The notes under the pieces were generated by a model. The model saw only the letters and a list, made by a program, of their open reading frames with translations. It ran no database searches and was not told where the DNA came from. This document shows, in pieces, positions 16,001 to 25,189 of a stretch of DNA of 51,588 nucleotides. Every line of letters begins with the position of its first letter. Position 1 is the first letter of the stretch. A program made the translations under genes and the position numbers. The stretch comes from Acidobacteriota bacterium (GTDB lineage Bacteria; Acidobacteriota; UBA6911): positions 1 through 51,588 of the forward strand of contig JAFGTD010000044.1 in the NCBI GenBank assembly GCA_016934295.1. Direction: 5' to 3'.

Positions 16001-17440
16001 CTAAAACGCCGCGTTTCCCGGTACGCGGGGGCAGAGGCAGACATCGCGGATGTTCGCCATGCCGGTGACGAACATCAGGGCCCGTTCGAAGCCCAGGCCG
16101 AAGCCGCCGTGCGGAACGGACCCGAACCGGCGCAGGTCCATATACCAGCCGTATTTCGCCGGATCCATGTCGCACTCCTGCATCCTCCGCATGAGTTTGT
16201 CCTGCCTGTGTTCGCGCTGCGATCCCCCGATCAGCTCCCCGACGCGCGGGACCAGGAAATCGAAACAGGCAACGGTCCTGTCGTCATCGTTGCAGTACAT
16301 ATAAAAAGGCTTGATGGACCGTGGATAGTTGATGACAAACGAGGGACGCTTCGTGTACTCCTCCGTGATCCAGCGTTCGTGCTCCGTCTGCAGGCCCTCG
16401 CCCCATTCGACCGGATACTCGAACGTCCTGCCCGACGCCTTCAGCGCCTTGACCGCTTCGGTGTAATCCAGGACCGCAAAATCCGCTTCAAGAACCGCCT
16501 TCAGCTTGTCCTTCAGCCCTTTCTCTATCCGCTCGTCAAAGAAGCGAAGGTCTCTCCCGCAATGGTCGAACACGTATTGGATAAGGTACTTCACGAAGTC
16601 GCCGGCGAGAACGATGTCGTCTTCAAGATCGGAGAAGGCGAATTCCGGCTCTATCATCCAGAACTCCGACGCATGGCGCGCCGTATTCGAATTCTCGGCC
16701 CGGAATGTGGGGCCGAACGTATAGACCTTCGAAAGCGACATCGCCAGGATCTCGGCTTCCAGCTGTCCGGAAACGGTGAGGCTGCATCTCTCGCCGAAGA
16801 AGTCTTTCGTGTAATCAATGCCGCCGTTCTGCCCCCTGGGAAGCTTATTCAAATCAAGCGAAGTCACCTGGAACATCTCCCCGGCGCCCTCGCAGTCGCT
16901 GGTCGTGAGGATGGGGGAATGCACATATACGAAGCCGCGTTGGTTGAAGAAGGAATGCACGGCGAAGGAGAGTGCCGACCGCATCCTGAAAACCGCCCCG
17001 AAGGTGTTCGTCCGCGGACGCATGTGAGCGACCGTCCGCAAAAATTCGAACGACGTCCCCGCCTTCTGGACCGGGGAGGCGGCGGCGCATTCCCCGACAA
17101 TCTCGACACGGGAAGGCACAATCTCGATTCTCTGGCCTTTGGCAGGGGATTCCCGGACCTGTCCTTCGACAAATACACTGGCTCCCGTCAGGAGCGATAG
17201 AACGCGGTCGTAGTTATCGAGGGATTCTTCGAGCACTACCTGGACGGAATCGAATACGGAGCCGTCGTTAAGGTGCATGAACGCCACGTTCTTGCTGCTT
17301 CTAAGGGATTTGATCCACCCGCCCACGGAGACTGTGTCGCCGGGCTTCGAGGATTTCAGTACGGCAGAGATTTCGTTTCGCTTCGGATAGGCCACGTCAA
17401 TACTCCCTGTGTTTAATCGTTCCTGTGTCTGTATGAGCAA
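16001..17440 (-). CDS. asnS: asparaginyl-tRNA synthetase
   Basis: GWIKSLRSSKNVAFMHLNDGS, FGPTFRAENSNTARHASEFWMIEPE, GFGLGFERALMFVTGMANIRDV. Confidence 0.95.
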   Translation of the reverse strand: MLIQTQERLNTGSIDVAYPKRNEISAVLKSSKPGDTVSVGGWIKSLRSSKNVAFMHLNDGSVFDSVQVVLEESLDNYDRVLSLLTGASVFVEGQVRESPAKGQRIEIVPSRVEIVGECAAASPVQKAGTSFEFLRTVAHMRPRTNTFGAVFRMRSALSFAVHSFFNQRGFVYVHSPILTTSDCEGAGEMFQVTSLDLNKLPRGQNGGIDYTKDFFGERCSLTVSGQLEAEILAMSLSKVYTFGPTFRAENSNTARHASEFWMIEPEFAFSDLEDDIVLAGDFVKYLIQYVFDHCGRDLRFFDERIEKGLKDKLKAVLEADFAVLDYTEAVKALKASGRTFEYPVEWGEGLQTEHERWITEEYTKRPSFVINYPRSIKPFYMYCNDDDRTVACFDFLVPRVGELIGGSQREHRQDKLMRRMQECDMDPAKYGWYMDLRRFGSVPHGGFGLGFERALMFVTGMANIRDVCLCPRVPGNAAF

Positions 17441-21892: not shown

Positions 21893-23458
21893 ATGAAGCA
21901 TCCTAAAGGTTTCATCCTGTGTGCAGTTTTCCTGGCAATTCTTATTTTTACGCTGCCGGCCGCGGCGCAGCAGTCCTGTGAAAGCCTGAAGTCGATCAAA
22001 ATCCCGAACATCACCATCACTTCCGTGGAAAAAGGCGAACCGGGATACGAGCTGGCCGCTCAGGGCGGCGGATTTATGAATGCGCCCGCCCAGAAAATCC
22101 AGGCTCCGTTCTGCCGGATTCAGGCCGTTTCGGCTCCGAGCAGCGACTCGCATATCGGCATCGAGGTCTGGCTTCCCGACGCCTCCAACTGGAACGGCAG
22201 GTTCCTGGCTGTGGGAAATCCCGGATTTATCGGCTCCATCGCCAGTTCCGGTATTGCACGGAACATGGAGCAGGGGTATGTCTCTGCGGGAACCGACACC
22301 GGACATTTGGATCCGGGATTCGAATGGGCCATCGGGCATCCGGAAAAATGGGCGGACTGGGGCCATCGCGCCGTGCATGAAATGGTTGTCGCAACCAAGA
22401 CTCTGGCCAATGCCTACTACGGCAAGCCCATTCAGTACTCCTACTGGAACAGCTGCCATAATGGCGGCAACCAGGGGCTTAATGAAGCGCAGCGCTATCC
22501 CGAGGACTTCGACGGGATTATTGCCGAGGATCCCGCCTTCTTCATCACCCATCTGCAGCCGGGCTCCCTGTATATCAGCTGGGTAGCTCTCAAGGACGGA
22601 GTTGGAGGTCCCGGCTATATCCCCCCGGCAAAACTTGAAGTAATCAACAAGGCAGCGCTTGCGGCCTGTGATGGAAACGACGGGCTCGTCGACGGCATAA
22701 TCGAACGTCCTACAAGCTGCGATTTCGATCCTGCGAGCATCCAGTGCAAAAACGGGGACGGGCCGGACTGCCTTACCGCCGGCCAGGTCGATACAGTCCG
22801 GAAAATCTATGAAGGCGCGAAATTCAACGATGGTACGCCAATATATACCGGCTTTGAACGGGGAAGCGAGTTGAATTGGGCCTTTATGATTGAGAAGGAA
22901 CCTTTCTCGGTCAATATGAACTATTTCAAAGGAATCGTGTTTGAGGATCCCGACTGGGATTTCCATACGTTCGATGTGGACCGGGACACGCGCCTGGGCA
23001 TAAAGAAAGCCGCTGCCGCAGTGGACGCGAACAATCCGAACCTGAAGCCTTTCAAGGATGCGGGCGGCAAAATCATTATGCTTTCATCCTGGAACAGCCT
23101 CGCCCTTCCGCCGGGGCAGTATGTCAAATACTACGAAGCGGTGGAGAAAACCATGGGCGGCCCCGAACAGACACAGGATTTTGCGCGTATGTTCACGGCC
23201 CCCGGCTCCGGCGGATGCCCCGCATTTGCGAATCCCGAAGGCTTCAAGCTTTTTGACGCCATTGTGGATTGGGTCGAAAAAGGCGAAGCTCCCGATAGAA
23301 TAATCTATCCCCATACAAAGGGGGGAGGCATGATGGGAGGCGGCGGCGGTGAAGCGTACCGAACCCGCCCGTTATGCGTCTATCCCAAGCAGGCCAGATA
23401 TAATGGAAGCGGCGATCCGAACGACGCAGCCAATTTCACCTGCGTCGATCCGAACTAA
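21893..23458 (+). CDS. tannase/feruloyl esterase family protein, predicted catalytically inactive
   Basis: YWNSCHNGGNQGLNEAQRYPEDFDGI aligns with the family Y.NGCSTGGRQGL.EAQRYP.DFDGI; signal peptide. Nucleophile Ser, Asp and His are all replaced. Confidence 0.85.
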   Translation: MKHPKGFILCAVFLAILIFTLPAAAQQSCESLKSIKIPNITITSVEKGEPGYELAAQGGGFMNAPAQKIQAPFCRIQAVSAPSSDSHIGIEVWLPDASNWNGRFLAVGNPGFIGSIASSGIARNMEQGYVSAGTDTGHLDPGFEWAIGHPEKWADWGHRAVHEMVVATKTLANAYYGKPIQYSYWNSCHNGGNQGLNEAQRYPEDFDGIIAEDPAFFITHLQPGSLYISWVALKDGVGGPGYIPPAKLEVINKAALAACDGNDGLVDGIIERPTSCDFDPASIQCKNGDGPDCLTAGQVDTVRKIYEGAKFNDGTPIYTGFERGSELNWAFMIEKEPFSVNMNYFKGIVFEDPDWDFHTFDVDRDTRLGIKKAAAAVDANNPNLKPFKDAGGKIIMLSSWNSLALPPGQYVKYYEAVEKTMGGPEQTQDFARMFTAPGSGGCPAFANPEGFKLFDAIVDWVEKGEAPDRIIYPHTKGGGMMGGGGGEAYRTRPLCVYPKQARYNGSGDPNDAANFTCVDPN

Positions 23459-23476
23459 TAGAAGGAGGTAGCTGTT

Positions 23477-25189
23477 ATGACCGGATTCCGGTATTTCCTG
23501 GTCCTGGGCATGTTTGCCGCCATTGTAGCGGCATTCCCGGGCCCGTCCGGAGCGCTGTCTGCTCAGGATACATCTGAAATTCAATATGAAGTCTTCAGCC
23601 CGTGGGCGGAAGTGGATCCCATACCGCTCCGGGGAATCTCACCGAGGATTGATTCCCTGGCGGGCAAGAAAATCGGCGTGTTCGCCAACTACAAGCGGGC
23701 TGCCCTGCCCATTGCGGGATCGCTTCAGAAAAGACTGAATGCCCTGTATCCCGATTCCGAGATCAGCCTTTTCCATTCGAGCGAATGGAACGTCACCGAA
23801 ATCGAAACGGAGGATCGGGACAAGTTTGAAGCCTGGGTCAAAGGAGTGGACGCCGTCATCCTCGTAGTGGGTGATTGAGGGTCCTGCACAAAGTTCCTCG
23901 TCTATAACGGGATATCGATCGAGGACTTTGGCACGCCGGTCGTGATACTGGCGAATCCAGGTTTTGTCAGGGACGCTCATTCCGCAGCGTCCAGTAAAGG
24001 TGTTCCCGGAATCCGGATCCTGCCCTTGAATGTGGCATGCGAATCCACGGTAGCCGAAGATATTGAAGCCGGCACCGCCGAAGCGATGCCGCATATCGCG
24101 GAAGCTTTAACCAAACCCCTGACCGCTGAAGAGAAATCCCCCCGACAATCGACGTCAGCGCCCCCCAGGATTGCTTTCAAAGGAAACTACGAAGATGTCA
24201 ACCGGTTCTTTTATCGAAAAGGCTGGACCGACGGTCTTCCGATAGTGCCGCCCACTGAAAAAGCCGTGGCCGAAATGATGACCGGCACCGACCTGCCGCC
24301 GGATCATGTGGTCACAAAGGTGATCCCCAGAATGGGAAAGGCCTCTGTCGAAAAAATCGCAGTCAACGCGGTCATGGCGGGCGCGCTTCCCACGCACATG
24401 CCGGTACTGATCGCCGCGGTAAAAGCCCTGATGGTGCAGAAAACCCGCTTCGATACTTTTGAAGTCAGCACGGGTTCCTGGGCGCCATTCTTCGCGATCA
24501 ACGGCCCCGTACGCAACGACATCCATATCAATTGCAGTTCGGGCGCCCTCAGCCCCGGGGATATCGCCAACGCGGCCATCGGGAGGGCGGTAGGGCTGAT
24601 CGTCAAGAATATCGGCGGCGCGAGGAAAGGCATCGAGGACATGGGCGTAATCGGCAATCCATCCAAATACACCCTTGTTATCGGTGAAAACGAGGAGGAG
24701 AGCCCCTGGGAGCCCCTTCACGTGGAGCGGGGATATAACAGGGAAGACAATACCCTGACCGTGTTTTTTCCTAACAGTTTTACACAGTCGGTTCCCCGCG
24801 GAACCAGCGCGGAGGGCATTGCGCAATCGCTCGCGGCCATGGGGCCGTGGAGCATGTCGTGCCTTATCGTTATTCCCTCGCATGCCAGGGTTCTGGCGGA
24901 CGCAGGCTGGACCAAGAAAAAGCTCAAGGAGTTTATCCTGCAGAATGCGGCGGATCCTTTCCGATCCGACCGGGAGGATTCGGACGTCCTTTCCGTACCG
25001 CCGCGGGCCGTCGATACCAGCGGGCTGATGATTCTGGTCGCCGGCGGGCCGGGGGCCTGGATGGGAATGCTCCGGAGCGTCGGCGGCATACAAAACGATT
25101 TCGTTACAACGAAAATCGAGCTGCCGCGCAACTGGGACGCCCTGGTGAAAAAGTACAAAAACATCGTTCCCGTCTATGCGGGCTATTAA
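23477..25189 (+). CDS. putative secreted UGSC-family selenoprotein (UGA at 23876-23878 read as Sec)
   Basis: ORFs 23477-23878 and 23942-25189 share a frame separated only by TGA 23876-23878; readthrough gives DAVILVVGD-U-GSC-TKFLVYNGISIEDFGTPVVILANPGFV. SD aaggaggt upstream; signal peptide; SECIS-like hairpin immediately downstream. Confidence 0.88.
23890..23929 (+). promoter_or_regulatory. candidate bacterial SECIS hairpin
   Basis: aaagt(t)cctcg (23890-23900) pairs with cgaggacttt (23920-23929). Inner UAU/AUA pairing around an AACGGG apical loop about 27 nt after the UGA. Confidence 0.75.

Follow-up and report, generated by a model that had tools for sequence, protein, structure and literature searches.

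The window, a stretch of 51,588 nucleotides from a metagenome-assembled acidobacterial genome (5.45 Mb in 343 contigs, 93.8% complete), carries on its forward strand a frame that opens with the ATG at 23477, closes with the TAA ending at 25189 and runs for 570 codons with a single interruption, a TGA at 23876–23878. The first-pass annotation had recognized here a split open reading frame, and this is what the sequence contains: the reading frames 23477–23878 and 23942–25189 are in phase and separated by that TGA alone, and the GTG at 23942, with which the second appears to begin, is merely the first start codon past the TGA and lies inside the conserved domain described below. Read through, the frame yields a product of 570 amino acids that includes ...VILVVGD-U-GSC-TKFLVYNG... 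and that we interpret, from the frame itself and from its paralogues and orthologues, as the product of one selenoprotein gene (23477–25189) of the kind that gene callers normally split. A Shine–Dalgarno sequence, AAGGAGG (23462–23468), stands 8 nt upstream of the ATG, and the preceding gene ends at the TAA at 23458.

The encoded protein begins with MTGFRYFLVLGMFAAIVAAFPGPSGALSAQ (23477–23566), which is charged at the start, hydrophobic in the middle and rich in small residues at its end; with this hydrophobic stretch and a helix at residues 4–18 of the structure model, the signal peptide proposed earlier is probable, and export of the protein is strongly indicated. Beyond it lie a UGSC domain (residues 42–212; 23600–24112), which holds the in-frame UGA as residue 134 and, as residue 137, a cysteine (23885–23887) presumed to be its resolving partner in a UxxC motif, and a C-terminal domain of about 350 amino acids (24143–25186). 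Neighbouring genes in the window encode a tannase-like esterase and a UroD-like protein. Elsewhere in the window, 16001–17440 encodes an aminoacyl-tRNA synthetase of the Asn/Asp/Lys type, the best match of which in a genome of the same genus is 39% identical over partial length and which shares 51–55% identity with Deltaproteobacteria/Desulfovibrio metagenome-assembled genomes (MAGs); horizontal transfer or a mis-binned stretch is a possible explanation.

Selenocysteine at codon 134 and the downstream RNA element

That the UGA at 23876–23878 encodes selenocysteine, and that the gene is consequently a selenoprotein gene, we regard as very nearly certain, on the strength of several kinds of evidence. 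Close homologues from the same genus, 63–78% identical to the window protein, have one TGA each, and in a codon alignment of the window gene with 16 of them from several species the TGA occupies codon 134 in all 17 rows, with protein identity of 0.61 before it and 0.68 after it. With a TGA at this codon in all close homologues compared and conserved protein to either side of it, the gene must be intact and the TGA neither a chance event nor a sequencing error, and read-through produces the continuous UGSC protein that had been proposed. When the comparison is widened to 94 homologues from public genomes, the same column holds selenocysteine in 79 and cysteine in 7 (together 86), the remainder being Ala (3), Met (3), Val (1) and Thr (1). 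The genome also encodes the complete selenocysteine machinery, with selA at 550 bits, selB at 407 bits and selC at 72.5 bits, above its cut-off, as well as selD, and the reading came through all three of the challenges that the first-pass annotation had set for it, namely the presence of selABCD, the identity of the aligned residue and the possibility of sequencing error. There are in fact two selD genes, L044 (G000:C267) and L045 (G000:C23), both of which exceed the cut-off and contain a single in-frame TGA of their own. A reassigned genetic code was also considered and is ruled out, UGA being the ordinary stop of 4 of the 20 other genes in the window.

The nucleotides that follow the UGA are constrained beyond their coding role. 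Over the 18 codons after it (135–152), synonymous-position codon identity is 0.74, a value that no other segment out of 477 attains; in the rest of the gene it is 0.445. This suppression of synonymous change, which in the codon alignment covers codons 135–158 (23879–23950), is what would be expected if an RNA element shared the nucleotides with the reading frame. Such an element is offered by a bSECIS-like stem-loop (23889–23930), in which 23889–23900 pairs with 23920–23930 with one bulge. Across 18 homologous sequences, 94.9% of the cells of this helix are standard pairs, whereas sliding the helix by 1–3 columns reduces pairing to 54.5% at most, and two of its pairs have changed on both sides. 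The SECIS-like hairpin claimed earlier is to that extent real and conserved; the GGG in its loop, which had formed part of the claim, is a variable position, with GCA, GGC, GGA or AGC in orthologues. In the RNA folding that had been suggested as a check, the single-sequence energy is unexceptional (z −1.23), and support for the hairpin therefore comes from its conservation in the alignment. A search of Rfam around the UGA returned no relevant match, and the fold energies of individual genes compared with synonymous reshuffles gave a weak signal; taken as a set, 21 UGA sites fold better than control segments (Mann–Whitney p 0.006), a result obtained with 45 nt per site, which is not enough to include the window gene's own hairpin.

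Family, fold and the relationship to GrdB and PrdB

The assignment of the U-G-S-C motif to the UGSC-type selenoproteins is confirmed by Pfam, with residues 42–212 matching PF24696 (E 1.9e-23, 83.9 bits against a gathering cut-off of 25) and the UGSC form of that family's UGSC/CGSC motif found at residues 134–137. The NCBIfam model NF041046, in which the protein scores 65.8 bits, has an equivalog cut-off of 125, and the window protein therefore falls outside this narrow equivalog model. It resembles the members of PF24696 and NF041046 in its domain, its motif and the use of selenocysteine with rarer cysteine forms, and differs from them in being exported and fused to a domain of about 350 amino acids. 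Both the family and a UGSC fusion have been known since 2008 from the Global Ocean Sampling survey, which presents a UGSC/Unknown_1 fusion (its Fig. S1A), likewise a UGSC domain joined to an uncharacterized one, and in its accessible portion mentions neither export nor an expansion in copy number (PMC2398784). Selenoproteins of the UGSC type belong to the most frequent in aquatic metagenomes, and the family is functionally uncharacterized; the literature that we searched yielded no biochemical evidence on any UGSC protein.

The 2008 survey considered a thioredoxin-like fold likely for UGSC and assumed a redox protein (PMC2398784). Our model of the full-length protein (pLDDT 83, pTM 0.82) shows instead five beta-alpha units in the UGSC domain, with Sec134 just ahead of a helix (135–150) that follows the third strand (126–130), and Foldseek retrieves flavodoxin-like reductases as the nearest solved structures to this domain, at modest TM values and scores. 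The domain is accordingly predicted to be Rossmann-like, and the thioredoxin-like fold is not borne out by the model. The C-terminal domain is modelled with higher confidence still (pLDDT 91), and the earlier description of it as a long domain of unknown function holds: no family was found for it in Pfam or NCBIfam, Foldseek found no PDB fold (best probability 0.20), and sequence searches of the PDB, whether with the whole protein or with either profile, returned no convincing match. Of 103 cases of the C-terminal domain in 80 public loci, 62 are fused to a UGSC domain, 33 lie beside a UGSC gene on the same strand and 8 stand alone within the flank retrieved, and with 95 of 103 thus fused or adjacent, the two parts very probably work together.

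Profile comparison places the UGSC domain as a remote relative of GrdB and PrdB, the selenoproteins of glycine and proline reductase. Aligned by hhalign against GrdB/PrdB-like proteins from related genomes, the UGSC profile scores 37.9, compared with a mean of 12.7 and a maximum of 18.6 over 150 column shuffles and with 11.4 for the reversed profile, and the UxxC motifs of the two are superposed, in a comparison that employs a profile of seven sequences and extends over about 60 aligned columns. With GrdB, GrdF, GrdH and PrdB, the selenoproteins of glycine, sarcosine, betaine and D-proline reductases (PF07355), the UGSC domain shares the UxxC located where a helix begins behind a beta strand, the 'E-x-x-GIPTV' strand that follows and a significant profile–profile match; it differs in that the alignable part is confined to the active-site region of about 60 residues and in that the window protein is exported. 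Single paralogues reach the NCBIfam models of GrdF (E 0.0012) and PrdB (E 0.011) weakly, and PF07355 matched neither the window protein nor any of the 27 paralogues described below. Proteins of the GrdB/PrdB-like group itself (L170–L181), with the motif LLTAG-U-PLCH or, in Sec-less form, GDALSH/GGCELSH (e.g., L181 and L179), are widespread among relatives that lie outside the genus and occur in 1 of its 10 genomes.

Expansion of the family in the genome and the genus

Counting the window gene, the genome holds 27 fusions of a UGSC domain to this C-terminal domain, all of them matched by PF24696, along with a short separate UGSC gene with a UGA (C100:42226) near a separate gene for the C-terminal domain (C100:40252). 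The UGA is present at the aligned position in 20 of the 27 fusions, the other seven having Ser, Thr or Met, and 19 of these 20 have Cys at +3. The two residues between are diverse, the motifs being UGSC, UDGC, UDSC, USTC, USQC, USLC, USVC, USSC, UWGC, UPGC, UHGC and UUGC. One fusion, L026 (G000:C207, 1422–3425, plus strand), has the motif U-G-A-A, a selenocysteine devoid of the partner cysteine, and this U also appears in L183 (G009:C253). Three further genes, L009 (G000:C330), L185 (G008:C58) and L186 (G005:C67), are tandem or clustered fusions that have lost both selenocysteine and partner cysteine and, with Ser, Thr or Gly at the site, have kept both domains. In about half of the fusion paralogues the N-terminus is clearly hydrophobic over a stretch, and several of these have a lipobox; export was judged on the chosen starts, some of which are set too late to allow a judgement.

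One paralogue, L023 (G000:C289, 1440–3360, minus strand), has four in-frame TGAs, which read as UU-GC at the selenocysteine site and, towards the C-terminus, as H-U-V-U-A. An 88% identical orthologue from another species (L182, G009:C14) retains all four, and 21 of the 23 residues past the last TGA are conserved between the two. Behind each pair of TGAs stands a strong GGU-loop hairpin (GCGATGG-GTT-CCATCGC for one, GGCTCG-GTT-CGAGCC for the other), which makes this paralogue a candidate, on sequence grounds, for a four-selenocysteine protein with two SECIS elements.

The multiplication extends to the genus as a whole: all ten of its genomes contain between 11 and 32 matches, and sampled relatives outside it contain 0–2, for part of which sample no more than six candidates were scored per genome. 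Each genome of the genus has some 10 to 30 relatives of the window gene, for the most part selenoproteins as well, and while some copies in MAGs could come from co-binned strains, the pattern is nonetheless repeated in all ten genomes. A FastTree phylogeny contains old lineages common to other phyla as well as groups exclusive to the genus, comprising 13 (support 86) and 7 (support 100) of the sampled sequences. The subgroup of the window protein, marked by the continuation GSCTK(F/Y)L, also includes sequences from Dehalococcoidales and Planctomycetota MAGs, a Cys form in Halobellus, and Clostridia/Spirochaetota members with Ala, Met or Val instead of Sec. Within this subgroup or close to it lie five sequences (L051, L052, L054, L055 and L056), from Clostridia, Spirochaetota and one delta-proteobacterial MAG, in which selenocysteine is replaced by Ala, Met or Val, an unusual exchange.

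Other bacteria are known to encode many selenoproteins, with at least 57 selenoprotein genes in Olavius algarvensis Delta 1 and 63 in a Methylomirabilota MAG (PMC13188914), and the likeness consists in the large number of such genes in one bacterium; here, by contrast, one family supplies at least 21 UGA-containing genes in one genome and is multiplied across a genus. In the open-access literature we found no report of the genus-wide multiplication of UGSC, of the relation to GrdB/PrdB or of the four-Sec member, an absence that is not proof. The apparent novelty looks to lie around the selenoprotein, and not in the family or the UGSC fusion, both of which were reported in 2008.

Proposed function and competing explanations

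The reading that we favour is that of an exported two-domain UGSC selenoprotein acting as a substrate-specific selenol reductase in the manner of GrdB/PrdB, a statement that, taken whole, we judge to be evenly poised between right and wrong. Its first steps are shown by comparison or strongly supported: SelB and tRNA-Sec decode the UGA at 23876–23878, aided by the hairpin that follows it; Sec134 lies, as modelled, where a helix begins behind a beta strand of the Rossmann-like domain and has Cys137 for its partner; and the C-terminal domain is the near-constant companion of the UGSC domain. By analogy with GrdB and PrdB, the selenol may then act as the catalytic nucleophile of a reductase, attacking an activated substrate, with release through the UxxC pair, while the C-terminal domain would bind and recognize the substrate or contribute another catalytic site, and the UGA-bearing copies, roughly 20 in each genome, would be specialized for different extracytoplasmic organic substrates. 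Gene neighbourhoods point loosely to catabolism. In public genomes the neighbours include periplasmic substrate receptors (TctC in nine cases, SBP_bac_5 in three) and pyridine-nucleotide (flavin) disulphide oxidoreductases (five), and in the genome itself paralogues adjoin CoA-transferases, ferredoxin-type proteins and aldehyde:ferredoxin oxidoreductases. A conserved operon was considered and rejected, the genus orthologues having no neighbours in common, and because neighbourhoods are not conserved between orthologues this step is a weak one.

The most serious competitor, which we consider unlikely and nevertheless of real weight, is that the selenoprotein is a general periplasmic thiol/selenol redox protein, such as a peroxidase, a disulphide reductase or a repair enzyme, rather than a catabolic substrate-specific reductase. 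The UxxC motif and export would suit a redox or repair role, the disulphide oxidoreductases among the neighbours fit it, and the 2008 survey assumed a thioredoxin-like redox protein (PMC2398784); the fold now predicted is, however, Rossmann/flavodoxin-like, substrate-uptake genes often adjoin, and this reading accounts poorly for some 20 divergent UGA copies per genome and for the large conserved second domain. An improbable alternative assigns the catalysis to the C-terminal domain and to the UGSC domain mainly a binding or scaffold role, in which selenocysteine tunes or anchors, for example by binding metal. It draws on the Sec-less copies, which more than anything else speak against a purely redox role: seven paralogues with Ser, Thr or Met retain both domains, and with the Ala and Met variants among other homologues they imply that some members function with no redox chemistry at the site. 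The C-terminal domain, moreover, holds the more conserved of the polar residues (D252, T260, N365, R370 and E404) and stands alone at a few loci. Against this, 86 of the 94 homologues have Sec or Cys at the site, and nearly every Sec form has the Cys at +3, both of which argue for redox use. Selenocysteine insertion in bacteria is generally inefficient, and split two-gene forms exist in other genomes, both of which would suit a regulated termination that releases a short UGSC N-terminal fragment beside a C-terminal part started separately at GTG 23942, but the split forms break after a complete UGSC domain and not at the active site, and 23942 falls within that domain, so that we hold this to be highly improbable. 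A nonsense mutation, pseudogene or sequencing error, formally suggested by an in-frame stop in a MAG, is refuted by the TGA in 17 of 17 close homologues, the conservation of protein on both sides, the synonymous suppression and the full selenocysteine machinery.

Extended to the genus, the substrate-specific selenol reductase reading describes a toolkit of up to about 20 mostly exported GrdB/PrdB-like enzymes per genome, each with the same new domain, tuned to its substrate through the two residues inside UxxC and including one four-Sec member with two SECIS hairpins, a picture that we offer tentatively and think somewhat more likely to need revision than to stand as drawn. Standard annotation cuts through the active site of each Sec copy and thereby hides it. 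The genus constitutes a natural experiment, with many diverged copies with and without selenocysteine and a fixed partner domain, and this experiment, the partner domain and the link to a mechanistically understood reductase family together make the function of UGSC testable.
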